The translations under genes and the position numbers were made by a program. Positions 5,815-53,405 of a stretch of DNA of 64,000 bases are shown here, one piece after another. Each line of letters opens with the position of its first letter. Positions within the stretch are counted from its first letter, which is position 1. This stretch comes from Isoetes taiwanensis (Eukaryota > Streptophyta > Lycopodiopsida > Isoetales > Isoetaceae). The stretch is from NCBI GenBank assembly GCA_021234155.1, contig JAJEKV010000001.1, forward strand, positions 38,424,826 through 38,488,825, written 5' to 3'. Under the pieces are notes generated by a model, which did no database searches, was not told where the DNA came from, and saw nothing but the letters and a program-made list of their open reading frames with translations.

Positions 5815-6284
5815 GGTCTGCAATTGTCTCGCAACACTGATGACGTGGACCTCTTAGCCTAAACTCCATGTGACATGCTCCATTTTGATGCTCTTGATAC
5901 CTTCTGCCAGTTCACTAGCATGCAGGTTAACTTAATCAAAACCGAAGTGCTGGTAGTTTCATCCTCGCACTAGCCACTGAGTCTCTCCTTCACCTATCAG
6001 AGTCAAAATATGGAGGTGGCTCCCAGTTACAAGTATTTAGGAGTGGAGTTTCCTACAACCATACACATCCAGTTGCATGTCACAACAGGCTAGAAAGCAC
6101 TATATCCCATGTAGAAAAATAGTCACAAAGCAGAGTTATATGCCTGGGGCCTTCAGTCGCACTTGTTTCGGTCTTGATAGAGCATGTTCTCTTATATGGG
6201 GTTGAGGTTTGGGGCCCGGTGATATCTCTCGCTACCTGGAATGATATGGAGCAAGGGCAAAAGAGTGTTTTATGGGAAGAAAAA
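5815..6284 (+). pseudogene. LINE reverse-transcriptase relic, part 1
   Basis: Reads TDDVDLLA (from a YADDV-type catalytic motif), then FTSMQVNLIKTEVLVVSS, SYKYLGVEF and LLYGVEVWGP, the standard order downstream of the catalytic box in plant LINE reverse transcriptases. It compares well in pattern with YADDVVLLA...LLYGVPIWGPEL of the minus-strand LINE at 16.4-18.2 kb. Stops and frame changes are frequent. The sequence resumes at 7479 after an insertion. Confidence 0.7.
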
Positions 6285-7478
6285 TGCCGTTAGCGCCTAA
6301 GGCGCCGTTCTTGGCCGGCTAGAGGGCAGCGGCCGCCCTCCCTCCCGCAAGCCATCACAGCGGATCTATGCAGCAAAATCAGTGCTTCTGGATGCTAGCA
6401 AGGCAGATGGACAGATTTTTTCTGGGACTGAACAACATATGCATGTATTTCTTCCTTTTTCCGGCGGCAATTCTACAGCAGGTCCACTAACGTGGTTTCC
6501 TTCTTTTTACATCTATTCCTCTGGAGTAGACAAGCTGAAAGGGTAAATCCAGCAGAGCAGTTGGAGGTCGGCCTATAAGGTGAAGAAGGAAAGAAGCTGT
6601 AAGATTTGAAAAAGGTTTTGATTTATATCATATAGAAAGTAAAATCCAGTTTCTTGGAAAAATCCATTCATGGTCTTTCTCTTCCACCATTTCTTTCTAG
6701 CAGAAATGTCTTATAGATGAATTGGATGATCAGAAAGATGTTTTTCAGATAGGGGAACCCTTTTGAACAGTACATAATTTCTGAGATTTGAATTGGAAAT
6801 GCAAAGACAACAGGTTCTATGACTAATTTGCGGTGCGTAAAGATTATCTTTGAGCACTTTCGGTTCTTGGTAATTGCAATGCCAAGAACCTCATGACCAG
6901 AAGATGCTTCACTGGCTGTGCTCAAATATATGTTTGAGTGAAAGATTATTCTAAGCACTCGGTTCTTGGTACTGCTATGCCAAGAATCTCATGACCAGAA
7001 TAAGTACTGACGCTTAACTGGTTATGCTAAAATATATATTTGAGGAAGTGCTCGCTCAGGTACTGATGCTTGAGCTTCTTTCTAGTCTGTTGTTGTGTCA
7101 TTCAGATATTCAGCTATGCCTTGCACTGAGTAAGGTTAGATATTCCTATTCCTCTCCTAAGAAATTTTGGAGTATTCAATTGCTTCCTCTAAGAGGATTA
7201 CATCATTCAGGAGCCTGCATGGTTAGCCTTTGTATTGTCATACATCTTCTAGTTACCAGGTGGGAAGAGTAATCCGAGGACGTCAAGCATATCAGCTATA
7301 AGAGCAATTCATGTGCTTTATGTATATCTGCTGTAGAGCATCTAATAAGTTTCTGCAAAATAGAGAATGAAGAAGTTGAGATTACTCCTGTAGTAATTCT
7401 CTATGAGCATGATACATTGTACTATTTTATCTATATAATACAAAAAAAAATTCGTTCCCTCAAAAAAAAAAAAAAAAG
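6285..7478 (+). mobile_element. Poly(A)-tailed non-autonomous retroelement, copy 1
   Basis: This 1.2 kb block interrupts the LINE relic. It starts GC-rich (about 6290-6360) and ends in a run of about 16 A at 7463-7478. The bases before it (GATATGGAGCAAGGGCAAAAG, from about 6245) recur right after the A-run (GATATGGAGCAGGTGCAAAAG), which is the expected target-site duplication of a LINE-mobilised insert. It carries no long open frame. A second diverged copy lies near 10640-11850; shared landmarks include CTTTCTAGCAGAAA, AAGCACTCGGTTC and TGCCAAGAAC. Confidence 0.68.
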
Positions 7479-7604
7479 ATATGGAGCAGGTGCAAAAGGC
7501 ATTTTGGCTCGGGCGCTTAAGGTCAAGTCCAACAGTCCCATATCAAATTCTGCTACAAGAGAAAGATTTCCTACCCCTTCAAAGGGTCGCACTAGGCTGC
7601 CATA
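7479..7604 (+). pseudogene. LINE relic, part 2
   Basis: Continues the LINE frame after the insertion: DMEQVQKAFWLGRLRSSPTVPYQILLQE, the equivalent of the KELEAVQKMFLKEELG region of LINE reverse transcriptases (short quotes: MEQVQKAFWLGRL). It stops at the left end of the inverted-repeat element at 7605. Confidence 0.6.
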
Positions 7605-7680
7605 GGGCAAAAGTATGCTGGTGGGGTACAAATAAACGCGACGCAGCACCCAGCATCCAGCACACTTTTTTTTTGTTTTT

Positions 7681-8180
7681 CATAATCGGCCATGCAATTC
7701 GATCATACATGCAAAATTTCAGGGCCTAATTTGGGATATTGAGTGAGCAATTAGAGAAAACCCATTTCTGCAGCAATTTTGGTAAAACAGAACAAATTTT
7801 TTTAATTCAGCCCAAATTAAGCTAAATCAGAGGGGCTTTTCAGATTTTCATAATCGGCCATGCACCCATATCATACGTGCAAAATTTCAGAACCTAATTT
7901 GGGATATTGTGTGAGCAATTAGAGAAAAACCATTTCTGCAACAGTTTTGGTACAGTGAAGAATTTTTTAATTCAGTCCAAATTAAGCTAAATCCGCGGGG
8001 GCTTTTCAGATTTTCATAATCGGCCATGCACCCATATCCTACGTGCAAAATTTCAGAACCTAATTTGGGATATTGAGTGAAAAATTAAAGAAAAACCATT
8101 CTTGCAACAGGTTTTTTGTAAAACAATGAGAAATCTCTTAAGTCAGCCCAATTTAAGCAAAATTAGATGGGGCTTTTAGG
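7681..8180. repeat. Three tandem ~167-bp units
   Basis: CATAATCGGCCATGCA begins each unit at 7681, 7849 and 8015, spacing 168 and 166. Each unit continues with ACGTGCAAAATTTCAGAACC-like sequence, GGGATATTGTGTGAG-like sequence and AGCCCAAATTAAGC-like sequence, with about 10 percent divergence. Confidence 0.85.
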
Positions 8181-8446
8181 CTGAATATGGTCGAAATAAC
8201 AATCCTACCTTGGTGGATAAGTTTTATGAAAAGATATGATGGATTGAGCAACTAATTGGAGATTCACATGCCAATTTGGAGTTTGGGTCATTTCTGCGCA
8301 CTAGTCAGACTCCAATCTAATGAAATCGATGCTAATCTGATGGAAAATTCGAGCAATGTGGAACGATTCTTGGCTGAAGAATCCTCTTAACAAATGAAGG
8401 GTGTAAAAAAACGAACCCACCAGCACCCAAAAAAAAGCAGGAAGCA

Positions 8447-8489
8447 GGGGTGCTAAAAGCATGCGTCCGGACGCGTGCTTTTGCACCCC
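8447..8489. repeat. 43-base palindrome at the right end of the 911-bp element
   Basis: Arms GGGGTGCTAAAAGCATGCGT and its near complement, centred on TCCGGA, ending in GCACCCC. Only a few positions are unpaired. It could extrude as a hairpin or cruciform. Confidence 0.8.
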
Positions 8490-8515
8490 ACCAGCATCCA
8501 GCATACTTTTGCCCC

Positions 8516-9030
8516 ATATCATCTAATTTCAGAAGGTGGTTGGTATGGGTGATGCTCAACTCCCCAATCTTGCTGACATAGTGGAGGCCCACAATGCCAT
8601 GAAGCCTTTTAGAAGGAAGAGCAAGCTTAGTGGTTCTCCCAATGGAATGTCCAGTCACATAGGTGCATCCATGTCCAAACTGAGGAGGATGACAATCACT
8701 TGCGGCAGTACCTTGATGTATGCTTCCTTAGCAAACTATGGGATGCAGGTGCACTGGCACAAGTTAAGACATCACATTACTAGCAACAGATTAATCCCAT
8801 GCTCACACGAGGCCCACAACACTACCTACATATACCTTTGCCCATGAAGAGACGTAAAGTGATAGCCTCTATTTACACGGATGTGCATTGCCTCTGCATT
8901 GTGATAGTCAGATGGACTCAGGAGGCACGTGAGGGCAGGTTTTGTCAGTGTTGCCAACTCGAAGCCATTTAGGATGAATATCATGCCCTTCAGATCTGTC
9001 CAACGTTCGATTAAATCTGGGCATAGTATG
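8516..9030 (+). pseudogene. LINE relic, part 3 (C-terminal Cys/His region)
   Basis: In one frame it reads PLPMKRRKVIASIYTDVHCL, then VRWTQEAREGRFCQCC, then DEYHALQICPTF. This is the C-terminal pattern of many plant LINEs (fixed RxxGSHxLxIxxxRW, CxxC, DExH, C). In-frame stops are present. Together with 5815-6284 and 7479-7604 it forms one LINE copy split by two insertions. Confidence 0.62.
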
Positions 9031-9039
9031 CATGAATAA

Positions 9040-9612
9040 TTTAAGGGCTATGTTTAATAATCTGGCGATTTTTTAGCACATTTTCAAAAGAATATTGGCT
9101 AGAGTAGATGGAAAAAAGTGGAGTAAAAGATAATAATTTTGGCTTGACTTTTTTCGCACCTGCACAAGCCTTTGCACTCTTTAGCCAACCATAGAAAGTA
9201 AGAGTGCGAAAATTTGTAATGTTTAGCTAACCATAGAAAATTTTAGAATGAGTTTTGGGCTATTTTAGCTAAAGTAATTCTAGATAATAAGAAAATATGA
9301 GATGATTATTTATTTCCTAGCATCATGGAATAATTTGAGGACTAGATTCAGCGAGTTGGCATTTTTTTAGCATGTTTCCACATAAGAAATGATCAAAATA
9401 AATGGAAACAATTAGAAAAAGGGTATAATACTTTTAGCTTGAATTTTTTTTTGTGCCGACACCTCAGAATTTTTTGGGATAAATTTTGAATTAGTTTAGC
9501 TAAATATTAGAAAGTATGAGAGGGAAAAGTTGAAGAGTTTAGCTAAATCATAGAAAATTTTGGGATTAGTTTCGGGCAAGTTTACCTAAATCCATGGTTA
9601 AATAGAAATATG
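9040..9612. repeat. Tandem duplication of a ~290-bp AT-rich unit
   Basis: Copy 1 (about 9050-9330) and copy 2 (about 9345-9610) share in the same order GATTTTTTAGCAC/TTTTTTAGCATG, GGAAA...AAGTGG/AGGGTATAA, TTTTGGCTTGA/TTTTAGCTTGA, TTTGCACTCTTTAGC-like text, CATAGAAAATTTT and GTTTCGGGCAAG/GTTTTGGGCTAT. No coding potential was seen. Confidence 0.6.
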
Positions 9613-9710
9613 TGATTAGCAATTTATCCCTTGACTGTATGTTCAGTTGGCCTCGCGCAGCCAGCCGTTGCGTGTGTTATTAGCCCGGGGGATTCAGTAT
9701 TGTTTGTAGT

Positions 9711-10010
9711 ATGGGACATGTACATGCAATAAAGGGAGATTTTTTCTACCATTTCACATTTGTATACTTACCATTAGGGGGTTTTTTCACCATTATCTGG
9801 GGCAAAATATATACTTTAGGGGTTAAATTAGCTTTCAAAGATCAGTATACTAGGGATGTTTTTGGCCACCCTACGAACGCAGATGTCCATACCCCGTTAT
9901 TACTAAGTGCATTCCCTGGGGTTATTAGGCATGCCCTCGATGGACTTATTGAGATCATGTCTTTAGAGGTCTTGGATACACGCACTCCGATATGTCCTCT
10001 AGGGCGATAA
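9711..10010 (+). CDS. Hypothetical 99-codon open frame
   Basis: Begins MGHVHAIKGDFFYHFTF and has a hydrophobic stretch (VYLPLGGFFTIIWG) near residues 20-33. No family is recognised, no neighbours support it and the length is within what chance allows, so it may not be a gene. Confidence 0.15.
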   Translation: MGHVHAIKGDFFYHFTFVYLPLGGFFTIIWGKIYTLGVKLAFKDQYTRDVFGHPTNADVHTPLLLSAFPGVIRHALDGLIEIMSLEVLDTRTPICPLGR

Positions 10011-38560: not shown

Positions 38561-38795
38561 AATCCTTTCTATCTATATATCTACCTATCTGTTGTATTTT
38601 CAAAAAAAAAATAAAAAAAGCATTGACAACTTCAAAAATAACCACAACCACAACCACAACCCATAAGCCCATAAACAACCACAACTAAAAAGTTTGATTA
38701 TTTTTCTTGCCAATTTGCTCCCATTATCTGTAGATGCTCTTGCCCAAGCTTACCAAATCCTTTAAGGTCTCGCACCAACAGGGCTCTCACCATTA

Positions 38796-38822
38796 GAGTT
38801 TTTTTGAGGTCAATTAAGGGCC
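38796..38822 (+). repeat. Left terminal inverted repeat of the 11.8 kb element
   Basis: Twenty-seven bases, starting GAGTTTTTTTGAGGTC; preceded by TA. Confidence 0.8.
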
Positions 38823-39138
38823 TTGTAAGAGTATTTTGGGGGGGCTGCCACGTAGGATCCCGAACCTACCTTTCCCCTCTCTATACCTAACTTTCACTCT
38901 CCCCTAACCTAACTTCCTCCCCCCCTCCAAACCTAACCTCGTATCTAACTTTGCAATCATTATTTCCTAACAACCACAAAATTTGATGATTACATCTAAG
39001 ATTTTCCTTTTCCCACCATCGAGCTTTAGCGCCATCGAGCTTGCTATCGAGCTTGCCATCACGCCATCGAGCTTGCCATCGCGCCATCGAGCGCCAACAA
39101 CCTTGCCATCGCTCCCAAGCATTGTTTGAATTCGAATT

Positions 39139-39204
39139 ATGGCGGATTCTTGCCAGCAAATAGAGCGAAATTTTTCAATTTCGCTCTTGTTGGCAAGAAT
39201 CTTC
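39139..39204. repeat. Hairpin upstream of the transposase-like gene
   Basis: GATTCTTGCCAGCAAATAGA and following bases to GCGAAATT pair with AATTTCGCTCTTGTTGGCAA and following GAATC, an imperfect stem of about 24 bp around a short T/A loop. Confidence 0.75.
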
Positions 39205-39242
39205 CTAATTCTAAGCTCCGCTCTGGTTCTCGGTCTTTTGCA

Positions 39243-41880
39243 ATGTCAATGGCAAAGGTATTTGGTTTCCAAGTTGTCATTGCATTCCTTTGAGTGTTCT
39301 TGATTCTAATACTTCTGTTCCAGGATCAAACTAATTCCGATGGTCAATTTAGAGTGCAAGTGCCAAAAGGATGCCTGCCTTACAGGAATAAGTTCACTTG
39401 GAAGCAACCAATAGATGAAGATGCATTGCGAGCTTCTGGAGCCATGAATATAGACCTCTGGGCTAAAGGGCAACTATATCCTTGTGATCCTTTCACTCGA
39501 GCCCATCCAAACTTCCACTCTGCATCCGGTCTTATTGAATTTGCTTGTAAGGGACAGCAAGGGTTACTAGGTTACTGTAATAATTTGGTTAATGGTAATA
39601 CTGATCTACATTTGCGTGCCATGTATAACCACTTGTATGGATTCAATTGCAAAGTTTTATCAGATGTTAATCAGCTCCAATAGGCGAACTATTTGCTGTC
39701 TCAACAATGCCGCAAGCTCAATGGATTGGAGGTAGAAAATAAAAAATTGGTGACGGAGATGAAATCACTGCAGCAAGGAATGAAGAGGGTTGCGCAAGAA
39801 AATGATTCCCTTCACAAGTGAGTCAAACGAATGAAAACAACTCCACTGGGGATCAGGGAAAGGGCAAGAAACCTGAAGCCCATAAATATATTAGCCCCTG
39901 GGGGTGGAGGCTCAAACAAAAGGGTCATGGCTATTAAAAAGCTTCTTGATCCAAATCTTGCAGCAGAAAATAAGAGAAAACCTGCTAATATTGCCCGTTT
40001 ATTAAAGAAATTAGTTACTAAAGATGATGTATTGAGAATGTTAAAGCTTCCTGGCAGCATTCAACTTAGGAAAGTTGTAGTACAGCAACTGCTGCAGGAG
40101 TTGGGGAACAGTCAAACCTCAGAATCAGTGCAAGAACTGTGTGACAATGTCGGAATAAGTAGACAAGCTTATATTGCTTTGTTCAGATGCTTGCAGGATG
40201 GCCTTAAACAACAAGGCATTACCAAAACTGTTCTACTACCAAGGATAACTAGTGTGAGGACTTGTAGGTCATCGAGAAACAGACAAGTGCAAGAGCTTCT
40301 TGGTGATATGTATCAGCTGACCAGCAGTGTCAATTTGGATACATTGCCATCTTATACCAAAGGTAAGAAGAAGTTGAAGTTTGGTGATACTTTCAACCTT
40401 AATGAAAATAACAATTGCTGGATAGACTTAAGTAGAATGCTTCAGCTTTTGGTTCGATTTTATAATATGAAGGTAGAAGAGTGCGCTGGCAAACTAAGAA
40501 TTGTTTTGAAGCTGGATGAAATGGAATTGGTGAAAGGCGAGAAGTACGAGAGGGTTTCACTGAGTCTAATGAACAGAGCTTTGAATACAGGGAATGAAGA
40601 GTCAAATCTAGAGGGTAAGTTTTCCGTCCAGTCTGAAGATCATATTTGGTGGGTTGGTTTATTTCAGGTACCAGAGGAAAATCACAGCATACTAAAATGG
40701 GTTTTTGATCAAACACACATCACCACAATGATTGCCTCTCACGGAATCGGAGAAAAACTTGCAGTTCCTGGATATCGTGAGTACGAGGTTGAATAGCATC
40801 TTGCTGCAGATTTGAAGATAATAAAATGCATGTACAGAATGAAGCATGGTGCTGGTAAGACTACTCATGCTTGTCCTTACTGTCTCTATGTGAGAAGAAA
40901 TTCAGCTAGGTTGGATAAGAGTACATTAGACTATGTCCAGGATGAGCCACCAAATAGAGAAAAGAAGGACACAACCTTGATGCCAATTCTGCCAATTCCG
41001 TTAAAAAGAGTACACATATGCACCCACCCTTCATGCTTTCTTGAGAATCATAGACAAGATGGTTTACATGAGTATCCTGTTTGCTTGGAATAAATCGCCC
41101 CAAAGCTCTAGGGAAACTGCCATGCATGAAGTTGAAATGGTGCTATCTAATGTGGGACTTCATGGCGGGCACTACAAAACACTTCAAGATCCAAAGGTAT
41201 CCGGCAAGGTTCCCCCGAAACCCAGTATGGGTGGTCCAAAGGCTAAGAGGTTTTTGCCTCCCACGAAAGAGAACTTATCTGGTGTTTGGGAAGCTTACAA
41301 GGATCTTATTGCAGCTGAGAATGATCGAAATGATCGTGGTAGATCACGCCTGAAGAAAATCAAGGCATGGCAGGATTTCTCACTGGTGAAGGAAATGCAG
41401 AAAAAGGTAGTGCAGGAAAATGATGTTGCCAAATTCCAGGAGGCCGTCACAAACTTCACTAAGTCTTTCCTGACGGCATGGGGTGAGGCCAATTTGACCC
41501 ACTATGTCCATATTCTGTTTGCACATGGCGTGTAGTTTGTCAGGGAATATGGAAGCCTGGGAATTTGGAATATACAGGGAATGGAGAAGTCCCATAAGCA
41601 AGCAAAGAATGCATTCTTCCGTTTCACTCAACACAGAGGTTCAGTTGGGAATTCCTTACAGCAGATGTGTCAATGGTTTTAAAGGAGGATTGTGTCCAAA
41701 TGGGTCAAGAAATCACGGAACCAGAGTGAGTCAACACTTGCTAAGTTGTTTAGACAAAAAACCCAGCGGAAAAAAAAGAGAGGGAAGCTTGGTATAAGTC
41801 CGCAGCTGTTGAGCGATCAAGGGAGCGGAGATCAATGAGATGTAGGCAAGGCAAAGATTATGTCTGTATTGAGAGCTCAT
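39243..41880 (+). pseudogene. Transposase-like gene of unfamiliar family
   Basis: Exon 1 (39243-39257, MSMAK) splices in phase 0 over a 66-base intron (GTATTTGG...GTTCCAG) to 39324. The frame then stays readable for about 2.4 kb, interrupted by TAG 39681, TGA about 39819, TAG 40794 (probably once TGG), an indel near 41030 and a later stop near 41533. Landmarks: coiled-coil-like LEVENKKLVTEMKSLQQGMK, KLDEMELVKGEKYERVSLSL, IWWVGLFQVPEENHSILKWV, then HLAADLKIIKCMYRMKHGAG and CPYCLYVRR (a CxxC pair), LRIIDKMVYMSILFAWNK, and in the last part HYVHILFAHG followed by EYGSLGIWN, QGMEKSHKQAKNAFF and TQHRGS. The order D/E-rich box, CPYC, LHAF-type helix, HxxHILF, YGSL, QGxEKxH resembles large repeat-derived proteins in plant, algal and animal genomes that I take to be transposases. 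Catalytic residues are not assigned. Confidence 0.55.
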
Positions 41881-41939
41881 GATAATGTCTCTACTGTAAA
41901 AAAGGTGGTTTATTTATCAGTTTGATAGTGGTCACTGTG

Positions 41940-42115
41940 CGAAATGCTATATTGTAAGTAAACTGGATGCATGTATTGCACACCATGGCCACGGTGCGAA
42001 ATATGGGCTTGTAACTAAACTGGATCCACGTATTTCGCACCGTAGCCACTGTGCGAAATAGGCTTCAATAATTTGTAACTGAGGTGATTTCGCACCGTGG
42101 CTACGGTGCCAAATA
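41940..42115. repeat. 57-bp palindromic unit array B1
   Basis: Copies of the palindrome with arms TTTCGCACCGT and ACGGTGCGAAA around a GGCT-like loop at 41975, 42034 and 42089, plus a partial at 41935. Spacing is 59 and 55. It lies just past the end of the plus-strand gene. Confidence 0.85.
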
Positions 42116-42349
42116 TGACCACAAATAGAACAATCACATGAGAAAATACATGGAAAATGGTAGAAGAAATCATTCACTTACACGAAAAGTTAAAAGGAAA
42201 ATTATTCGCCAAGATAATAATACATGATAATATATAGAAGTTACTTAATTACATGAAAATCACATGCTTATATACTTAATTTCTATGAAAATCGTAGGTT
42301 TATACCAGTTTATACACTAATTCCAATGGAGTATCTTTACCTGTGATAT

Positions 42350-42930
42350 GTACGTATTACGTGTTGTGTGCTATGTAGCCATAGCTCACGTGTATCCCAA
42401 GGAATTGTATTTCATATGGGGCCACAAGACAGTAGCCACAAGATGTTGAAGTCAAGGGATCGGAATAGGAGCTGACCAATATCCACAAAAGATTTGTAAT
42501 GGAAGTTGTAAAGTTCAATGAAGATATAAATCCTATTCTTTTCACAAGTAGGAATGACCAGAGGTACATAGTGATCCAGAGAGTAGGCCATGAAACCATG
42601 GAAAAGCATGTCCTTCAACTGTTCTAGCCTATCTTTCAAATCTGAGGGGGATTCAAGAAGTCACAAAGCACTTAAAGTGATCCTTGCATGATTCGGACTG
42701 ATCTCCTGCAGTGGAGGGAGATGACAAGTATAGCGATCGATAATGAAGTTGATCAGCTGCGCCACCGATGCTCCCAAAAGTTGCTAACAAATTCATCAAA
42801 AGTGCACATATTTATTCTGCCGCATGCTTGCATTTTGTGGGATATCAGAGCTACCTCCTTCCATAGATATGAGCGGATTTTAGCAAAGAGAAGAAATTCA
42901 AATAAGCAATATTGCCTCTCCTGATCCCAT
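42350..42930 (-). pseudogene. Possible Ulp1/C48-like cysteine protease fragment
   Basis: Minus-strand frame reads LPPLQEISPNHARITLSAL, then after a stop LKDRLEQLKDMLFHGFMAYS, LDHYVPLVIPTCEKNRIYIF and ELYNFHYKSFVDIGQLLF. The sequence DHYVPLVI...RIYIF..LYN resembles the His region of Ulp1-type proteases (HW.L.VI....R.Y..DSL), but the expected Asp after it is not there (IELYN) and no Cys box was identified. Ulp1-like genes are frequent passengers of plant DNA transposons. The assignment is weak. Confidence 0.28.
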
Positions 42931-42944
42931 AAACCCCTAGACTA

Positions 42945-43085
42945 AAAAATGTTCATAGTAGCCACAGTGCAAAATGGTGTCATGCGCACGCCGTGGAATA
43001 GCTGTTTTCGCATCGTAGCCACAGTGCGAAATAGGGCAGTCCAAAAACTGCCGACATCTTGTTTTCGCACCGTGGCTACGCTTCT
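42945..43085. repeat. 57-bp palindromic unit array B2
   Basis: Units near 42950, at 43007 and at 43064, exactly 57 apart, same palindrome as B1 and B3. It lies 200 bases past the stop codon of the minus-strand gene. Confidence 0.85.
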
Positions 43086-45499
43086 GATGTACATACATGG
43101 AAATGATTGAATTCACTAATTAAAAAAGACCTAACATATACATGTAACAAGGATTTATTGCTGACATTCAATTCTAACAATTAATGAATTTCATAGATGA
43201 ACACTCATACAAAAGCAATTTTCTCATATAAAAACAATTCATGCATTTTATAGAAAAGATATTATATTAATACGAAAGTCTTTCAAGTACATTTTCTTTT
43301 CTTGGCATCAGGGCCTGGAATACCCGAATCAAATTCTTTTAAGTCCTCTTCCTTTACTCCAGCCCCAATTGCATCTAACAGATACAATATATCAGGGTCC
43401 TTCTGTGCACAGGACAAGCGCAGTGCTTCCTTGTCCGCTCCACTCAAGCCTAGAGCTGCTTTATTTGCAAGGATAGGGTACATTTTGAAGCCTTCGAAGA
43501 CATACATAGCGATAGCCCTATCTACTGCTATAACTCGATCATAGTTTGCGGCTAGGGGCACGTGGTTGTCAGCTAAGGACAGAGCTTTAAGCTTGAGGAC
43601 CTCTTCTACTCCAGATGGACTATATTTATCGTGAAACACAATAATTTTCCCCTTGTGAAGGTAGCTCATATAGTGTGCAATACTGGCGTCCCGACCTAGG
43701 GTGACTCTCTCACGCCTTGCACAGAAGTCATCAATAAATAACACCTGCATAAAAGAAACATCAGATTCAAGAAGAAATAAAAAATGAAACCAGATAAATA
43801 CCTCTCTCTTGTCCCGTTCGACAACTGCTGGGTTTGTTATTTTGAAAGAGGACTTCGACAGGTCACGTTCTATGAACATAGAAGCAGTGTTTGAAGAGAT
43901 AGCAGCTTCAAAATTGACATCTTTCACTGCTTCATACCCTGCTTCAGCTTGCTGCATGACAATTTCAAATGCATCCTCTGGAGGTATTGAGGATCCATCA
44001 TAAGTCACAGCCTCCATCATTTGTCTGGGAACATCGAGTGTCAAAGTCTATAAGTCCTCCCAGGCCTACAACATGCACATATATCTGGCCCAATATCTCG
44101 TCTTCTCTCAACCCTGTCACTTCAGATATGTCAGGCAGCAACAAGTATGGTTTCCCACCTACATGGATGGGACATGCTTCTGATAACCCCCAAGTAGATA
44201 ATTTTTTCTCGGAGACCTCCTCTTCTAGAACCTCGTTCTCTTCATTTTTCAGTATGAGCTTCTCTTCCTCAGGATCTATCGACTCCTCTACTGGTGAGGC
44301 AGGGCGTTTTATTTGAGCGACCTTTGCACTTGAAGAAGAACTGGCATCTTTGTTTGGCTTAGTGTAAGTCATATGTATGTGCTGAACATGATATCTAGGC
44401 TGTAAAAACATTCTTTGCCGTCTTGCCTGCACAGTTCTGCAGGTAGTCTCTTCAAGAACCTTCTAATTCGGTCTTGATCAGGTTTCGAAAACATCTTAAT
44501 TAAAGCTTGCATGCTTAGTGAAGGCAAACCAGTCACAGGACATGGTTTCACGTTAAGTCCAGCTGTATCCATGAAGCTATGAAGGATGCCGCCATATGCA
44601 TCAGTAGACCTGTTACACTCTGCCATAATGTCTACTGTCAGGCAAAAATTATTATATACAGTGGTTGCATCCACTGGTTCCTCTAGCTCCTCCTTGAACT
44701 CTTCTGGATGCTTCTGACGAAAATCCCGTTCTTTCTCCACTATTTTTTCATACCATGCGCTAAACAGCTCCCATGCCTTATTTGACCCGCTATTTACCAT
44801 TCTCGTGGAGCAGCGTCTCGATTTATGACAGCTTGAATGTGAGCGCCTTTGTAGCGGCTTGATTTGCAAGAGAGACTAACACCATGGCAACGATGCGAAA
44901 ATAACACTTCCTTAATTTATGCTATACACAAATTCGCACCGTGGCTACGGTGCGAAAACAAAACTCCGATAATTTATTCTATGTACAATTTCGCACCGTG
45001 CCTACGATGCGAAAATACCCCTTTAATTTTTTATGCTATACACTACAAGAGAATAAGCAATCTACATCAATAGTTCCGTCATTTATGGGTTTAAAAATCA
45101 CAATTTCAAAATTTTCAACTTTGACACAATAAATGACGGTACCTGTTGATGAAACTACATTAGGTATATCGTCATGCATAACATCATGAATAGCAACAGT
45201 TATAATATCATATTTTATGTCATTGTGGTGTGATACAACATCATCATTTTTAGCATCACCTATATTGCTACATTTGATATCATTTATAATGTCAACATGA
45301 ACATCATTCTTTGTAACATGGTTGATATCATATGTAACGTCAATGAGAATGCCCAGATATTATCACGTATTCTTATGAGTGAATACCACAATAGTATCAA
45401 ATATAATCACACATTTTTGGCCACTTATAATGCCAAATGGTTCATCAGTTTTCAAATCCCCAGTCACACATTTTTGGCCACTTATAATGCCAAATAGTT

Positions 45500-45560
45500 C
45501 ACCAGTTTTGCAAATCCTGGGGATTTGAACCCCCTGCCAAATTGGCAGCACCAGCGGACA
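45500..45560 (-). other. tRNA-like sequence (minus strand)
   Basis: On the minus strand GTCCGCTGGTGCTGCCAATT is followed by GGGGGTTCAAATCCCC, an A-box/B-box-like pair. Next to it are two copies of CAGCGGACAAAAAAAACTC. Likely a SINE head or tRNA relic. Confidence 0.4.
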
Positions 45561-47485
45561 AAAAAAAACTCAGCAGCGGACAAAAAAAACTCAGCAGCCC
45601 TGCATAACAATGTATATAAGAGAATGGGGATTTTTGTCAAAAAAAATCGTCAGATTATTGGCTAACAGTTTACCTGACAAATATTACAGTGTCAAAAAAA
45701 TCGTCTGTTTTTCTGACAATTAAGGTCAACAAAATCATACTTCACCATGACTTTAGAGCTGTTGCATACGAATTTAACCTGTGCATGGCCTTGTACATAA
45801 ATATCTGTCCTAGATTAGCATTTCTAATATTATTAGACTCTAACCTAAGATTCAGATTAGCATGACCATTTTCATCAGTACATAAGCTGGCCAACAGGAG
45901 CATATAAGCAGGCATCAGTTGTAAACTTTACATGTCTACCACAAATTCATATCTGGTAATTATCAGTTAAAAGTACACAAGACAAACCTGGTTTATGTGC
46001 ACTTCCAGCATGATAATTTGCTCCTTGATCTATTGAACGTACCATAGATGCACCATCTTTATTTTGGCATGCTACACAGGTGCCCAAGAATCAGTCAGGA
46101 ACATACGCACAAAGGCATAAATCATATCAATATTTTTGAATTTTTACCAGAGCAATATTTTAGCTGAATCTGGAGCCTGCTAAAGTGTTTTTAGGCCATA
46201 AACACTGACCGCAAGAGCCTGTACAATAGACGCATCCCCGTGTATAGTAGCCACAGACCAATGCTGCAGCTATCTATAAGAGCCGCATATTCGTAAAACT
46301 AAGCATAAGGAACATGCAACAGATTCAACCCACTATCTCACAGCAGGCCCAACACGCAGCAGCACCTGTTCAGCATCAAATCATTACATGCAAAAGATAT
46401 TCTATCAGCCAGTAAAAGCTAGAAATGACAAAAGGTCACTTTGGCCTATGCCCAAATAACCTGTAAAAGTGGATGCATTCATAACAGTCGATTCTAAAGG
46501 CATCTCAGTTACCAATTTCAAGGTATATATATCTCTTTACAGCATATAACAAATTTCATGAGCAGATTCACAATAAAAATCACTTTCAAACCTTAATCAT
46601 GCTGCTTCAAATCTGCATATTTCTTTTGTTGGGTTGCTTATAAATCCATTTCAACTACAACCATATCTGCATTCCTTAAGACACTGATGGGTATAATGAA
46701 GGACCACACTGTCAGCACAGAGTCAAACAACAGATCTTGTATCTATCTGCTTCAATTTTACTAAGCCAAAAGCGGCCTACCTAGCATAATCGCTCTTCTA
46801 CCTTCGCAATCAGACAGAGCATTGGAGCATCTATTTGCGGCTGGACATCAATTCTACAAATGCCATAGATGCAGGAAGCATTAACTGCTATCTTCGTGCA
46901 AGGGTTGCATGCCCAAAAAAACTAACTTTCCGGCGGAGATTTAAGCAAAAGGTGTAGTACAAAAGGAACATACCTTTTTGCATGCATGCGCTAATCCATT
47001 AGAGATATTTCTGGCAAATAGACAGCGGGATCATCTGTGTCACAGGATTAACATCATGAGACAGCGGGATCATGACGTTAGGATCTGCATCTGTGCTATC
47101 CGGTAGAGCTATGAGCATCAAACATTCTCTTGCAAAAGCGGAACCCTAAAACAGTTGTAAATTTTTTGCTAAAAAAGACACGACAAGCTAATATTGCCAT
47201 GTTAAATTCCAATTGCCCAATTTTGCGATACCAAGAAAAGGTATTATAGTCCACCATTAAATCCAAATGAAAGACCAAGTTCCAAACGCGAGTCAAGTCA
47301 TCGAATTATTTTCCAAAAGTGCATGAGAAAAAACCACCCAAGGATGGATACTGGATGATACCAAGTCCCAAACGTGAGTTAAGTAAGCCATTGAATTATT
47401 TTTCAAAAGTGCATGAGAAAAACCCACCAAGGATAGATACTAGAAGCAAATGCAATTATTGTGCCTAGGCCAAGTAGGATGCCTT

Positions 47486-47607
47486 ACAACATGGCAACTG
47501 GGGAGCTCATTCCGTCTCCGGAATGGAAAACGACGCTCCAATTCCGCTCAGCAGGTTATGAATAGGTAATCAGCCTCTAAATCCTTTCTCCCCAGTTGCC
47601 ATGTTGT
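47486..47607. repeat. 20-bp perfect inverted repeat
   Basis: ACAACATGGCAACTGGGGAG (47486-47505) and its exact complement at 47588-47607, with an 82-base loop containing CCGTCTCCGGAATGG. Confidence 0.93.
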
Positions 47608-47609
47608 GG

Positions 47610-47940
47610 GGGGATGAAGCTGGGTCGCTGATTCCAGGACCCGCTCCCGGCTCCCACCGGTCGCAGGACCCCCTGGAATCGACTTCCCAACTCCCACCCC
47701 GTACATCTTGGCAGACACGTTCAAGGGTCAAAACTTATGCAATAATTTTTGCTTGGTTTGTGTTTTGTGTGTTATTTTATATTTTATTGTTTGTCTTGTG
47801 ATGGGGCTTCGACCCCAGGTTTGCGTTTGGGCCTTGGCCCCTTGTTTAGTTTGGGCTTCTGCCCTTTTGTATTGTTCTGTCCCGTAAGCCTTTGAGCTTC
47901 TCGTGGACGTTAAAATTCTATCTTATCTTATCTTATCCAG
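47610..47940 (+). mobile_element. Possible SINE or LINE 3' end with (TTATC)n tail
   Basis: GC-richer text with GGCTTCGACCCC (a B-box-like word), GGGCCTTGGCCCC and CCCGTAAGCCTTTGAGC, ending in TCTATCTTATCTTATCTTAT. Short repeat tails of this kind are common at LINE and SINE 3' ends in plants. No target duplication was found. Confidence 0.35.
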
Positions 47941-49416
47941 GTTTCATCAACACGTCTTGGTCTTTCACAAGTTAAAACTATAACGCCATGCTTGGTTCAA
48001 TGCGGCTCATTTTTACACCCTAGAATTAACATATGACATATGTGGCATTACCCACAAGGATTTCGAATGGTAAAATGCATGGTCAAATGGTTAAAAGTCC
48101 CATCCATCCATGGTATTCACCATTAAGAAATCTTACCCATTATACAATTTCACATCCATTACTAATGTTCACACTTAGAATCTTTCAAACACATTATAGT
48201 ATTGGCTTAAATCCATAAGTATTAATTGGATTTATTTGCACCATTATTGCTTTTCAATTATTTGCACAATTATTCCTTGTATTATTATTATCATCAAATT
48301 TATAACAATTATTGATATTAAGAGTGACATGAGTCGTGATATTGTCCATGATGCTATTAGCAATACATATAATGTCATTTGTTAGCAGTGATATTATCCA
48401 TGATGCTATTAGCAACACATATAACATCATTTGTTAGCACTGATATAATATTGTCAATATGTGATACTACAGATGAAGCTATGTGTGATACTATAACTGG
48501 CATAAGCTATAACACTTGTATTGTCATTAGCACCATTGGAATAATTAATGATGGTAAAGTTGATGCAATAGGTGATATTATTCATGATGGTAGTAATAAC
48601 ACATATATTGTCATTAATTAGTACTGATATAATTGTTGACCATATTTATGACGATGTTGATGATGCTATAGATGATATACTTTGTATCATAGGTTGCATC
48701 ACTAGACCTTGAATATCATTATTTATATCACTTAGTGCTTTTTGAGATTTTAAGTGATATTAAAGTGATGATAAAGGGCTCTCTTGTAGTGTATGCATAT
48801 TTTCGCACCGTGGCTACGGTGCGAAAATAGCCCTTCCATATTTTATGATATCCACAATTTCGCACCGTAAGTACGGTGTGAAAATACAATATCCATATTT
48901 TATGTTGTACACAATTTCGCACCGTAGCTACTTTAAGTCTTATGTTACAATGAAAGCAAATGTTTGCAATTAATATACAATAGATCTCCAATTAACTATC
49001 ACTTATATTTATATTGCATGGATTCATATACAGATATGACTTTTGGTGGCATGCATGACCCCAATTTATAGCATTCTTCTCTGCGCTTTCCCACCTTCTA
49101 GCCGTCTATCATAAAATGGAAGAAATGTAAGTCTGTCTCAAATTCTAATTGCCGCCGAACATCGAATAAAGACCACTCGCCCTCTGCTCTCAGACTTTTG
49201 AACAGCTAATTATCCTTATGAATGTTCAAGTCTATGACAACGGAATGAGTGCCATCATTGTCATCTTGTTCTACAGGAATCCAGACGTACTTTCTTCCTT
49301 CACGGACATTTTGCCATCTCTTATACTTAAAAGTGACATACAGTGTTTGCTTTCGAATGCAATATCTGAACCGAACCGTGTCTCGACTTATCCTGCATTC
49401 AGTAGATTCAGCTCCA

Positions 49417-50201
49417 TCATGAAGTCGAGCACTCCAACCTTCTATCTAAAAAACTATCCACCGACTGTTGAACTGTAAACATCTTCAAGGTCTTCTTAAC
49501 ATTGTCGGCGCTCTTGAATAAGGCAATGAACAGATCAATTCCTAAATTTATCTTCACATGCCCGCAGACTCCTCCCTTCTCCTTCAATGCCGTGAACATT
49601 TCCTGCGACAACTTACTCCGTGCTAATAAGATAGAAGTGGCATCCAGAGGCCTGCAGTATAGATCGGACAGGCTGGGCAATGGAAGCTCAATTAGCTTGG
49701 ATCTTCGTGGAGAGTATTCATACCTCCAGAACCATATACCCCTTTCTCTGAGCTGCACTGGTGTGCTACCTTCGAACAACAAGGAGCCCATATCTTGGAA
49801 TACACTACTTATCGAGTGTGAAGAGACTGTGTTCTCCACATCAGATATACATAAACCTGAGAGAATAGGAATGAAGTGGATAAGTAACTGAACTAATTTA
49901 GATATGGATTGCATAGAAGTACATACTCACAATTTGCTTCTAACCATGGGAAAGTTCGTCGCTTGCTTATTTTTTCTTTTGCCATATCTCTTGGAGTGTA
50001 TACATGCCTTACTTGTACAAATATCTCTTTGCCTGATCGAAAACCGACCACCAAAGCCTTCCAATGTGCAGAAACATCATTTCTCCTACACCTTTTGACT
50101 TGCCATTCACCTCGCATTGCAGGTTGGAGTGTAACAAAGTTCCCGGTCGACACCACGAAGCTTTCAAAGTCATTTCTGACTGTGATAGAGCTTATAGCCA
50201 T
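49417..50201 (-). pseudogene. Possibly BAH-like N-terminal region of the minus-strand gene
   Basis: Spliced exons 1 and 2 contain GKEIFVQVRHVYTPRDMAKE and later GIWFWRYEYSPRRSKLIELP plus LPSLSDLYCRPL. The VRHVYTPRDM piece recalls the W-F/Y-R-P-E/D core of BAH domains in plant chromatin proteins. The rest is not diagnostic, so this is a hint only. Confidence 0.25.
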
Positions 50202-50580
50202 CTAGTCACAGAATTCAAATCAGAATGTGGAGGGGAATCGAAATACTAGGAAAGGCTCTGCGATTTTACCTTGATCGAAGCTTTTCTGTGGTCGAAACTC
50301 TCTTTGGCGCAGGTCGAAGCAGAATCGAAGTTCCCTTGGCGCGGGCAATCGATCTTCGCGCAAACTCTGTTGAGGAAAACACCTGAGCGGGAATTGAGGG
50401 CGGGAGCTAACGGTCATAATTGCCACGTGTGTAATCTGACACCCGAAGCTAGAGGCACGGATATTACCAAAGCTACGTGCAGTTGACACCTGGAATGGCG
50501 AAACCAAGGCTCGGTAAAAAAACTCTGTACAAGCTCGGCTCCCCATTGGCCGCGAGCTTTTTGACGTGGCATCGAGTAAG

Positions 50581-50607
50581 GGCCCTTAATTGACCTAAAA
50601 AAAACTC
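50581..50607 (-). repeat. Right terminal inverted repeat of the 11.8 kb element
   Basis: Ends ...GACCTAAAAAAAACTC followed by TA; one mismatch to the left repeat. Confidence 0.8.
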
Positions 50608-50612
50608 TATAA

Positions 50613-53405
50613 ACTGATTGGTGTAAATAGAGGCGTGTGTGAATTCGAGATAAAAATCAAAGACGGAATGAAGCCTGTCATGCAAAAACTTAGAAGAATT
50701 AATGTAGCCTTGCTTGATCTCATTAAGGATGAATTGCATAGGATGAAAGATGTTAGTGTAATAACAGAAATTGTAAACCCTGAATGGTTGTCATGCATTG
50801 TGCCTGTTGAAAAAAAGAACAAACCCATTAGAATTTGTATTGACTACAGAGACGTGAACAAGGCAACTATTAAGGATTGTTATCCCTTGCCCTTCTTGGA
50901 AGATGTTCTACATGCTGTGGCAGGTAAGGAAATATACTCTTTCTTGGATGGTTTCTCAGGTTTTAATTAGATTAGTATCAAGGAAGAGGATCAGCCCAAA
51001 ACAGCCTTCATCACACCTTGGGGAATCTTTGCCATGAAAAGAATGCCTTTTAGTTTGATGAATGCTTCATCAACTTTTCAAAGGGCAATGGATAGAATAT
51101 TTAAGGACATGCCTTCACATTTGTTCAGAGTATTTCTAGATGATTTATGTTTGAGCTCTTCAAAAAAGGATCACTTTGATTACCTCACAAAGGTGTGTTC
51201 TATGTGCAAAAAAGGAGGAGTAAGCTTAAATAAAAAAAAAATGCATTTTCCTGTGCTCCAAAGGAGATCTATTAAGACATGAAGTGTCAAACAAAGGCAT
51301 ACAAATTGCTGAAAGTAATGTGGAGGCTTTAAAGAGACTTGATCCACTAAACACCCTCAAGCAAGTCAAGAGCTTCTTGGGAATGGTGAGCTTTCTGAGA
51401 ATGTATGTACCACACTTTAGTCCTATCTTTGAACTGACCAAGGTTGGAAAATTCTCAAAAAATAAAAGTAAGCACATATTGGTGAAATGGAATGAAACTT
51501 GTCAGGAAGCTTATGAGACGATCATAGAATCAATACCTGGCTCTACTTTACTAAAACCCCCGATCCTAAGAAGCCTTTTCAAGCCTACTTGAGTGTAACC
51601 AAGAGAGCTATAGGATTACATTACTCCAGGAAGACAAAGTAGTTACATTTGCACGCAAAATCTGGTATGACACTGAAATGAGATATCCCAGGCTCGAGAA
51701 AAGTGCAGCTGCTCTTATGTTCTTGATTGATAGGCAGGAGCGTCTCATTGAAAACAGCCACACTCAAGTTTTCGTGAAACAAAATCTCATGTCCCTTTTA
51801 TTTGCCAAAAACCAACCCAAGGCTAAAATATGCAGGTGGGCATGCAAAGTGCAAGCATATGATATCAATGTCAAAGTGGTTAACTTAATCAACAATCCAA
51901 GTGCCTACCTGCCATATATGCTTTTTGAGCATGAAGACCAGGAAGGATTAAATGAGACTGATCATGTTACTAACTTGGTTGCTTTACATGAAAAAGCTTT
52001 GGATTGGCAGTTTGATATCAGGAATTATTTGGAGAACAATGAGGTACCCAAAGAAATGAGTAGCAGTCAAGAAAGAAGATTCAAGGAAAAATGCAAGAAG
52101 TTCAGATTGGTAGGAGAGGTCTTGTGCAAAGTTGACAAGGAAGGTGTGTTGCTGAGATGTATAGACCCAGAGGAAGCCAAAATGATAATTGAAGCATTCC
52201 ATGAAGGCATTTGTGGAGGACATTTTGCTGCTGATACAACTGCAAAGAAAACTTTGAGGTCAGGGTATTTCTGGCCTACTCTTTTTAAGGATTGTTATAA
52301 CACCATTAAATGTTGTCACAAGTGCCAATTTTTTGGCAAAAGAGTGTTGCAACCATCTCCACTTACTGCCATAACATCTCCACGGCCATTTCAGACATGG
52401 GGACTTGACTTTATACGTCCAATAGATCCTCCCTCATCAGCTCAGCATCAATTCATTCTTGTGGGTACAGATTATATTTACAAAGTGGGCTGAAGCAGTC
52501 CCACTTAGAGAGACAAATGCTTTGACTACCTCTAGATTCCTCCATGAAAACATTTGTTCCAGATTTGGGATTCCTTTCAAAATTGTTTCTGATAGGAAAA
52601 CTCAATTCATAAATCAGACCATTGCTTTGTTGCTAGCTTCTCTCAAGGTCAAGCATACCAGAAGCTCATCTTAACTACCCTCAAGAAAATGGTCAAGCTG
52701 AGTCAACAAACAAGGTTCTGAAGTTAATTCTGAAGAAAACCATTAGCATCTCTAAAAAGGATTACCCTCAAGGAAATGGTCAAGCTAAGTCAACAAACAA
52801 GGTTCTGAAGTCAATTCTGAAGAAAACCATTAGCATCTCTAAAAAGGATCGGCATTTGAAATTGCATGATGCTTTATGGGCATATAGGACTATTTAAAGC
52901 ATCCACAAAGCATACTCCCTTCAGCCTGGTTTATGGCATAAATCCATTGTTCCAATCAAGTGAGGTGCCATCTCTTAGGTTGGCCTATCAGATAAACTTA
53001 GAAATGGAGGATACACTAAAGGAAAGATGTGTGAGTTAGATATAGTTGGAAGAACACAGGTTTGAAGCTGAAAATGCAATTCTGATCAAAAAAGCCAAAG
53101 ACATAGCAGCATTCAAAGCTGCTCATAAGCTTCAAGGTACCCTCAAAACAGGTGAATTGTTTCTTAAATGGAATAAAGCAAGGGAAGATGTAGCAGCAAA
53201 ATTTGAAAATCTTTGGGAAGGGCCTTTTGAAGTGATTGGAACAGTAGGCAAGAACTCCTATTGGTTAAGGGATATTCTTGATGGTAGAGAATTACTGAAT
53301 CCTATCAACATTTTGCATTTAAAAAGGTACTGGCAACAACATGTTGTCTTAAGCTTATTTTTTTTTTTGAAGAACTGTGTCAGCAATATATTAAAAGAAT
53401 GGTAA
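50613..53405 (+). pseudogene. Ty3/Gypsy pol relic: RT, RNase H, integrase
   Basis: RT: KPVMQKLRRINVALLDLIKD, PIRICIDYRDVNKATIKDCY, FSFLDGFSGFN then a stop, FSLMNASSTFQRAMDRIF and VFLDDL in place of YVDD. RNase H: RKSWYD.. then the connection region. Integrase: HHCC zinc finger with GGHFAADTTAKKTL and CCHKCQFFGK, core GLDFI (first Asp), SDRKTQFINQ (second Asp; SDNGTQF normally), NGQAEST (catalytic Glu), and the C-terminal PFEVIGTVGKNSYWLRD with NPINILHLKRYW. Stops and frame changes occur near 50968, 51282, 51592, 52493 and 52674. The relic starts directly at the right end of the 11.8 kb element, so its 5' part may have been displaced or lost. Confidence 0.85.
52668..52852 (+). repeat. 92-bp tandem duplication over the integrase catalytic Glu
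   Basis: TACCCTCAAGAAAATGGTCA...CTCTAAAAAGGA is followed directly by a second copy. Copy 1 encodes NGQAEST, copy 2 NGQAKST, so the second has lost the catalytic Glu. Confidence 0.9.

Follow-up and report, generated by a model that had tools for sequence, protein, structure and literature searches.

A decayed transposon in Isoetes taiwanensis that probably belongs to a RAG1/CACTA-like family with blunt integration

The window analysed here is a stretch of 64,000 nucleotides from the lycophyte Isoetes taiwanensis (contig JAJEKV010000001.1, positions 38,424,826 to 38,488,825). Full-length RuBisCO large subunits are encoded in the genome, and their sequence reads as plant-like. Two inverted repeats lie in it 11.8 kb apart (38794-38822 and 50581-50609, identity 28/29), enclosing the features collected in Table 1. 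A first-pass annotation had described 27-bp terminal repeats with one mismatch, each flanked by TA, around a long transposase-like gene on the plus strand and a single spliced gene on the minus strand. The repeats are real, as are the plus-strand transposase-like gene and the minus-strand coding sequence opposite it. However, the full terminal inverted repeat is 32 bp long (5'-CATTAGAGTTTTTTTGAGGTCAAWTAAGGGCC), and family ends read 5'-CATTAGAG...CTCTAATG-3', 32 bp each. The left repeat of the window begins with CAT, TA being its bases 4-5, while the right repeat is without the terminal ATG and has TAAACTG there instead. On the minus strand two separate genes, B and C, flank a nested insert and are accompanied by a remnant of gene D; homology and block comparison with other copies rule out the single spliced gene.

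Table 1. Features of the element copy in the window, numbered from the first base of the window.
Feature	Position	Strand	Basis
Left terminal inverted repeat (32 bp; first bases CATTAGAG)	38791..38822	+	End alignment, unoccupied-site comparison
Transposase, main open pieces	39294-39683, 39822-40796, 40797-41093, 41005-41535	+	ORFs
Transposase homology, in-frame stops, frame break near 41025	39348..41712	+	ORF and homology comparison
First proposed catalytic D codon (LDEMEL)	40515..40517	+	Alignment; position counted by hand
Second proposed catalytic D codon (AADLK)	40809..40811	+	Alignment
C(2)C motif CPYC	40872..40883	+	Alignment
H(4)H motif HILFAH	41509..41526	+	Alignment
Proposed catalytic E codon (GMEKSH), within the RAG1-matching stretch	41584..41586	+	Alignment, PDB searches
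Palindrome array, 57-bp spacing, after transposase	41973..42117	.	Repeat scan
Gene D remnant, 37% identity over 131 residues	42379..42765	-	Homology to other copies
Second palindrome array	42949..43080	.	Repeat scan
Gene B, three frame pieces	43283..44875	-	ORFs, homology to other copies
Third palindrome array, left part, split by nested insert	44880..45040	.	Repeat scan, copy comparison
Putative nested CACTA-type insertion, ends CACTACAAGAGA / TCTCTTGTAGTG, foreign to the family	45041..48791	.	Absent from six other full copies
Third palindrome array, right part	48798..48944	.	Repeat scan
Gene C (putative upstream exon 49893-50201)	49029..50201	-	ORFs, homology
Right terminal inverted repeat (29 bp left of 32, without the final ATG)	50581..50609	-	End alignment

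To judge from its reading frames and ends, the window copy is dead and not autonomous, given the stops and frame break in the transposase, the broken gene B, the lost genes, the nested insert and the damaged right end. Element positions of about 6250-9990 (45041-48791 in the window) are unmatched in copies C930, C1018, C1045, C243, C132 and C907b, and this 3.75-kb stretch is read as a nested CACTA-type element within a 57-bp repeat array; no clear 3-bp duplication was seen at its ends. Beside the right end of the copy, at 50599-52493, lie open frames that by eye resemble Ty3/gypsy reverse transcriptase, RNase H and integrase.

A search of the 1.66-Gb assembly with the 29-base end uncovered a large family, with 212 copies on the plus strand and 228 on the minus strand at up to 3 mismatches. 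The reversed pattern, run as a control on the same assembly, was found on neither strand (0 and 0), so these ends are not due to chance. Thirty five distinct ends were compared (inner 29 bases with no more than 5 substitutions, flank of at least 25 bases). CAT precedes the inner repeat at 34 of them, the sole exception being the right end of the window, and the TA that had been taken for a flank lies inside the repeat, preceded by CAT. Likewise, CAT before TAGAG, or ATG after CTCTA, is found at every measured end except that one. The annotation had treated similarity running past the repeats as evidence against its element; the copies do agree beyond the reported repeat, by 3 bp only (CAT/ATG). 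In C930, C243, C132 and C907b the two ends are identical at 32/32 bases and divergent beyond. Element length ranges from 3.8 to 18.4 kb across the facing-end stretches measured: 12 from the window's subfamily, counting the window itself, and two from divergent lineages.

The flanks of 12 loci of the window's subfamily (11 pairs of ends and the window) were joined and the genome was searched for unoccupied sites. All 12 loci entered the first search and 7, again with the window, the second; the best 40 matches were listed per search and 19 of these 80 were compared at the sequence level. Among the matches listed, the empty sites that the first-pass annotation had recommended seeking were present as junction-spanning sequences for 9 of the 12 loci. 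None was found for C132, C907b or the window copy among the best 40 per search. No base was lost or gained at seven of the nine (C679, C1045, L016, L009, L011, C243 and L010) and one extra C was present in the occupied copy at two (C930 and C1018); comparator L061 is noisy, and the comparators for C243, L010, L011 and C1018 carry substitutions near the junction. A duplication of 2 bp or more was seen at none of the nine loci with an unoccupied site, and the TA target duplication assumed earlier is thereby excluded. Moreover, the unoccupied sites lack both TA and CAT/ATG, so CAT..ATG is part of the element. Also rejected, since these sites contain neither CAT nor ATG, were CATG with AT duplicated and CATATG or CATTAATG as a palindromic target. 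The base preceding CAT is C at 16, G at 10, T at 5 and A at 3 of 34 ends, and A stands three bases outside the end in 19 of 34, which indicates a weak target preference.

Gene content was compared between copies. The window shares with C930, C1018, C1045, C243, C132 and C907b a left block (transposase), gene B and a right block (gene C). Gene B is one 444-aa open frame in C1045. Gene D occurs as two diverged copies in C930, C1045 and others, with only a remnant in the window; another open region lies past gene D in C930 and C1045. Of the 19 stretches examined, 16 showed gene C and 15 showed gene B, self-matches counted; the three in which gene C was not found (C1026, C1044, C919) may stop short of it. 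Copies that were read as far as their right part have the transposase facing the minus-strand gene C, and the same two genes face each other in the divergent elements C1084 (8.6 kb) and C1039 (8.1 kb), where a search at E 1e-5 found neither gene B nor gene D. Copies with the transposase and minus-strand genes between the ends thus exist, as the first-pass annotation required of its element, and its view that this is a mobile family is borne out by precise ends, full and internally deleted copies, and open transposase frames in related lineages. Deletion breakpoints at element 682/5413 and about 10240/10562 are common to C679, L009, L010, L011 and L016, which therefore represent one derivative lineage that multiplied. 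The non-autonomous derivative (L009, L010, L011, L016, L012-L013) retains parts of genes B and C.

In C930, palindromic arrays with a spacing of 57 bp lie between ORF units. Such repeats (TTTCGCACCGTRGCYACGGTGCGAAA-like, 57-bp spacing) between genes are perhaps terminators or insulators. They are not a trait of the whole family: in L029 and L031, which span nearly all of both two-gene elements, tandem-repeat scans showed none. The accessory genes matched no Pfam model at its cut-off. Gene B had no match in PDB, and gene C had a single one at E 0.14, with nothing above noise in Pfam or PDB. Outside the elements, a 428-aa open frame, judged Helitron-like by eye, lies 3-4 kb past the right end of C1084 (L030), and a 301-aa repeat-like open frame lies just outside the right end of C930 (L026).

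The 324-aa transposase piece of the window has at least 132 matches listed (123 of 2722 candidates scored), and the 902-aa frame at C1039 at least 74 (50 of 4273 candidates scored). Stop-free frames over nearly the whole protein are present at C1039, C931, C1036 and C1033, and lineages with about 40% identical transposases retain CATTAGRG ends. C931, C1036 and C1033 encode open transposases of ~850 aa that are 89-90% identical, with dN of 0.05, dS of 0.33-0.43 and dN/dS of 0.12-0.16; the open transposase frames of this related lineage are under purifying selection. A domesticated host gene was rejected as the source of these three frames, each having a CATTAGAG end in its 1.3-kb upstream stretch and flanks that are not visibly alignable. 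Among 61 pattern-matching stretches of viral contigs, no relatives were found. The transposase and the other element ORFs tested matched no Pfam model at its cut-off, and alignment A1 (12 rows), searched against Pfam without cut-offs, gave a best E of 0.0012 and mostly coiled-coil models (25 of 31 families listed).

A resemblance to RAG1 emerges from the motifs of the transposase, which follow the order D-D-C(2)C-H(4)H-E. The candidate residues in alignment A4, in L047 numbering, are D11, D116, C137, C140, H352, H357 and E377, the last counted along the L047 row; C137/C140 and H352/H357 are invariant in A4 and the E is invariant in A2. The mouse RAG1 residues are D600, D708, C727, C730, H937, H942 and E962, and by these numbers (PMC4914335, excerpt) the motif steps of 105-21-3-212-5-20 here are nearly those of RAG1 (108-19-3-207-5-20). 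RAG1 made up 14/15 (E from 0.031), 11/16 (E from 0.05) and 3/3 (E from 0.76) of the matches in three PDB searches, and for all three queries its matches fall on the same C-terminal stretch, at the proposed catalytic E. The long profiles A1 and A3 matched RAG1 in 0/6 and 0/16 cases in PDB; few of their rows extend to the C terminus, and coiled coils draw matches. We regard the relation to RAG1 as a weak lead, strengthened by the spacing, and not as proof of homology (best E 0.031).

The window contains a dead copy of a terminal inverted repeat family that is probably a RAG1/CACTA-like (CMCT) branch of cut-and-paste elements with blunt integration. A more tentative proposal is a plant superfamily of RAG1-type DDE elements not described before, with CATTAGRG ends, zero-stagger transfer, a partner gene and, in one subfamily, added accessory genes between palindromic arrays. 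The transposase would belong to the RAG1/Transib/CACTA kind of DDE enzyme and carry a zinc-binding C(2)C...H(4)H insertion. It would cleave the element at its CA..TG termini and attach the two ends to target positions directly opposite each other, with a stagger of 0 and occasionally 1. Repair after such opposed joining would leave no duplication, and RAG1-like cut-and-paste with opposed joining would account for the CA..TG ends as well as for the exact boundaries and the lack of a duplication. Spy offers a precedent for a terminal inverted repeat element able to insert without duplication, with another transposase and target (PMC11304231, excerpt). Gene C may help in excision, repair or escape from silencing, and genes B and D, set apart by the palindromic arrays, may serve the window's subfamily as accessory modules.

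Other readings differ in how they explain the boundaries. The first-pass annotation is taken to mean a TA-inserting, Tc1/mariner-like element, and at either end the 27 inner bases do adjoin TA; with unoccupied sites at nine loci that lack TA and CAT/ATG, and no mariner domain matched, this is now scarcely credible. The missing duplication could instead stem from recombination (of a circular form, for example) or from later loss rather than blunt strand transfer. Integration is deduced from sequences, and the extra base at 2/9 loci leaves some room for this; however, later loss must have been exact at 7/9 loci, and recombination sits poorly with the weak site preference in the flanks and with the lack of a recombinase domain in the ORFs tested, making either very improbable.

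The remaining two alternatives concern the enzyme and its name. If the transposase were an unrelated cut-and-paste enzyme, its likeness to RAG1 would be convergence or chance, as PDB E values of 0.03-1.3 (no proof of homology) and long profiles without RAG1 would allow; yet six conserved steps agree with RAG1 in order and spacing, and RAG1 is the top match for three different queries, so we consider this unlikely. The family could also be a member of Lanisha, a lineage already named, in which case only the host and the detail would be new. Lanisha was reportedly proposed by Maumus, McDaniel and Carey in Repbase Reports in 2020; its proposers work on mosses, and its host is a moss. Its placement in the CMCT clade and the common C(2)C and H(3-4)H (PMC12730594, excerpt) also speak for membership, and nothing found speaks against it; we nevertheless hold it to be rather doubtful.

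The reading we prefer, RAG1-like cut-and-paste with opposed joining, bears on how such elements are recognised. The length of a target duplication reflects the spacing of the two strand transfers made by a DDE enzyme, and it is used to define superfamilies. Were this reading true, a RAG1-like lineage too could reach a strand-transfer spacing of zero, the sole other such terminal inverted repeat element encountered being Spy of invertebrates, and land plants would join the hosts of RAG1-like transposases that have a partner gene convergent to them. An annotator guided by target duplications may place the ends of such an element wrongly, and the first reading did so.

Among the papers listed in literature searches, none described these ends. 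Tc1/mariner elements duplicate TA, whereas 0 or 1 bp is gained at 9/9 loci here and no mariner domain is present. Helitrons carry Rep/helicase and are without terminal inverted repeats; this family has a 32-bp repeat and no such Pfam model in the element ORFs tested. Spy, a PHIS-superfamily element with a transposase of that type, is described from three phyla of invertebrates and has its insertion point between AAA and TTT (PMC11304231, excerpt). It shares with this family cut-and-paste between terminal inverted repeats without target duplication (here 0 bp at 7/9 loci and one base at 2/9), but the base counts at 34 ends show no AAA/TTT target, and no PHIS-type model is among the Pfam results.

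The CMCT clade comprises EnSpm/CACTA, Mirage, Chapaev, Transib, Plavaka, ESTA and Lanisha, together with RAG1, and is defined by C(2)C and H(3-4)H, mostly CA..TG ends and 2-5 bp duplications; Lanisha was placed in it as a superfamily with C(2)C and H(3-4)H, and ESTA was recognised through its similarity to RAG1 (PMC12730594, excerpt). The present family has the same C(2)C and H(3-4)H between the second D and the E, the same CA..TG termini (with CAT..ATG borne by the element) and, as for ESTA (PMC12730594, excerpt), a weak similarity to RAG1. In contrast, its duplication is 0 or 1 bp rather than 2-5 bp, its ends read CATTAGRG and it has no Pfam match. Because two of the three CMCT features are present and the 2-5 bp duplication is absent, we assign it to no named family. 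Lanisha, by its description, would share the CMCT lineage with it and is the main candidate among the named families. CACTA/EnSpm has CAC(TA) ends and a 3-bp duplication, against CATTAG ends and 0 bp here, and no CACTA model appeared in the Pfam results for the element ORFs. ESTA, from fungi, is likewise a terminal inverted repeat element with RAG1 similarity; however, it duplicates TA, whereas here TA belongs to the element and nothing is duplicated. Transib and RAG1 make 5-bp duplications, against 0 or 1 bp here; the candidate DDE and zinc-ligand residues agree in order and spacing, with weak sequence matches. ProtoRAG, which also makes 5-bp duplications, combines a RAG1-like transposase with a second, convergent gene; the two-gene layout here would be similar, with a gene C that is unmatched in Pfam or PDB above noise.
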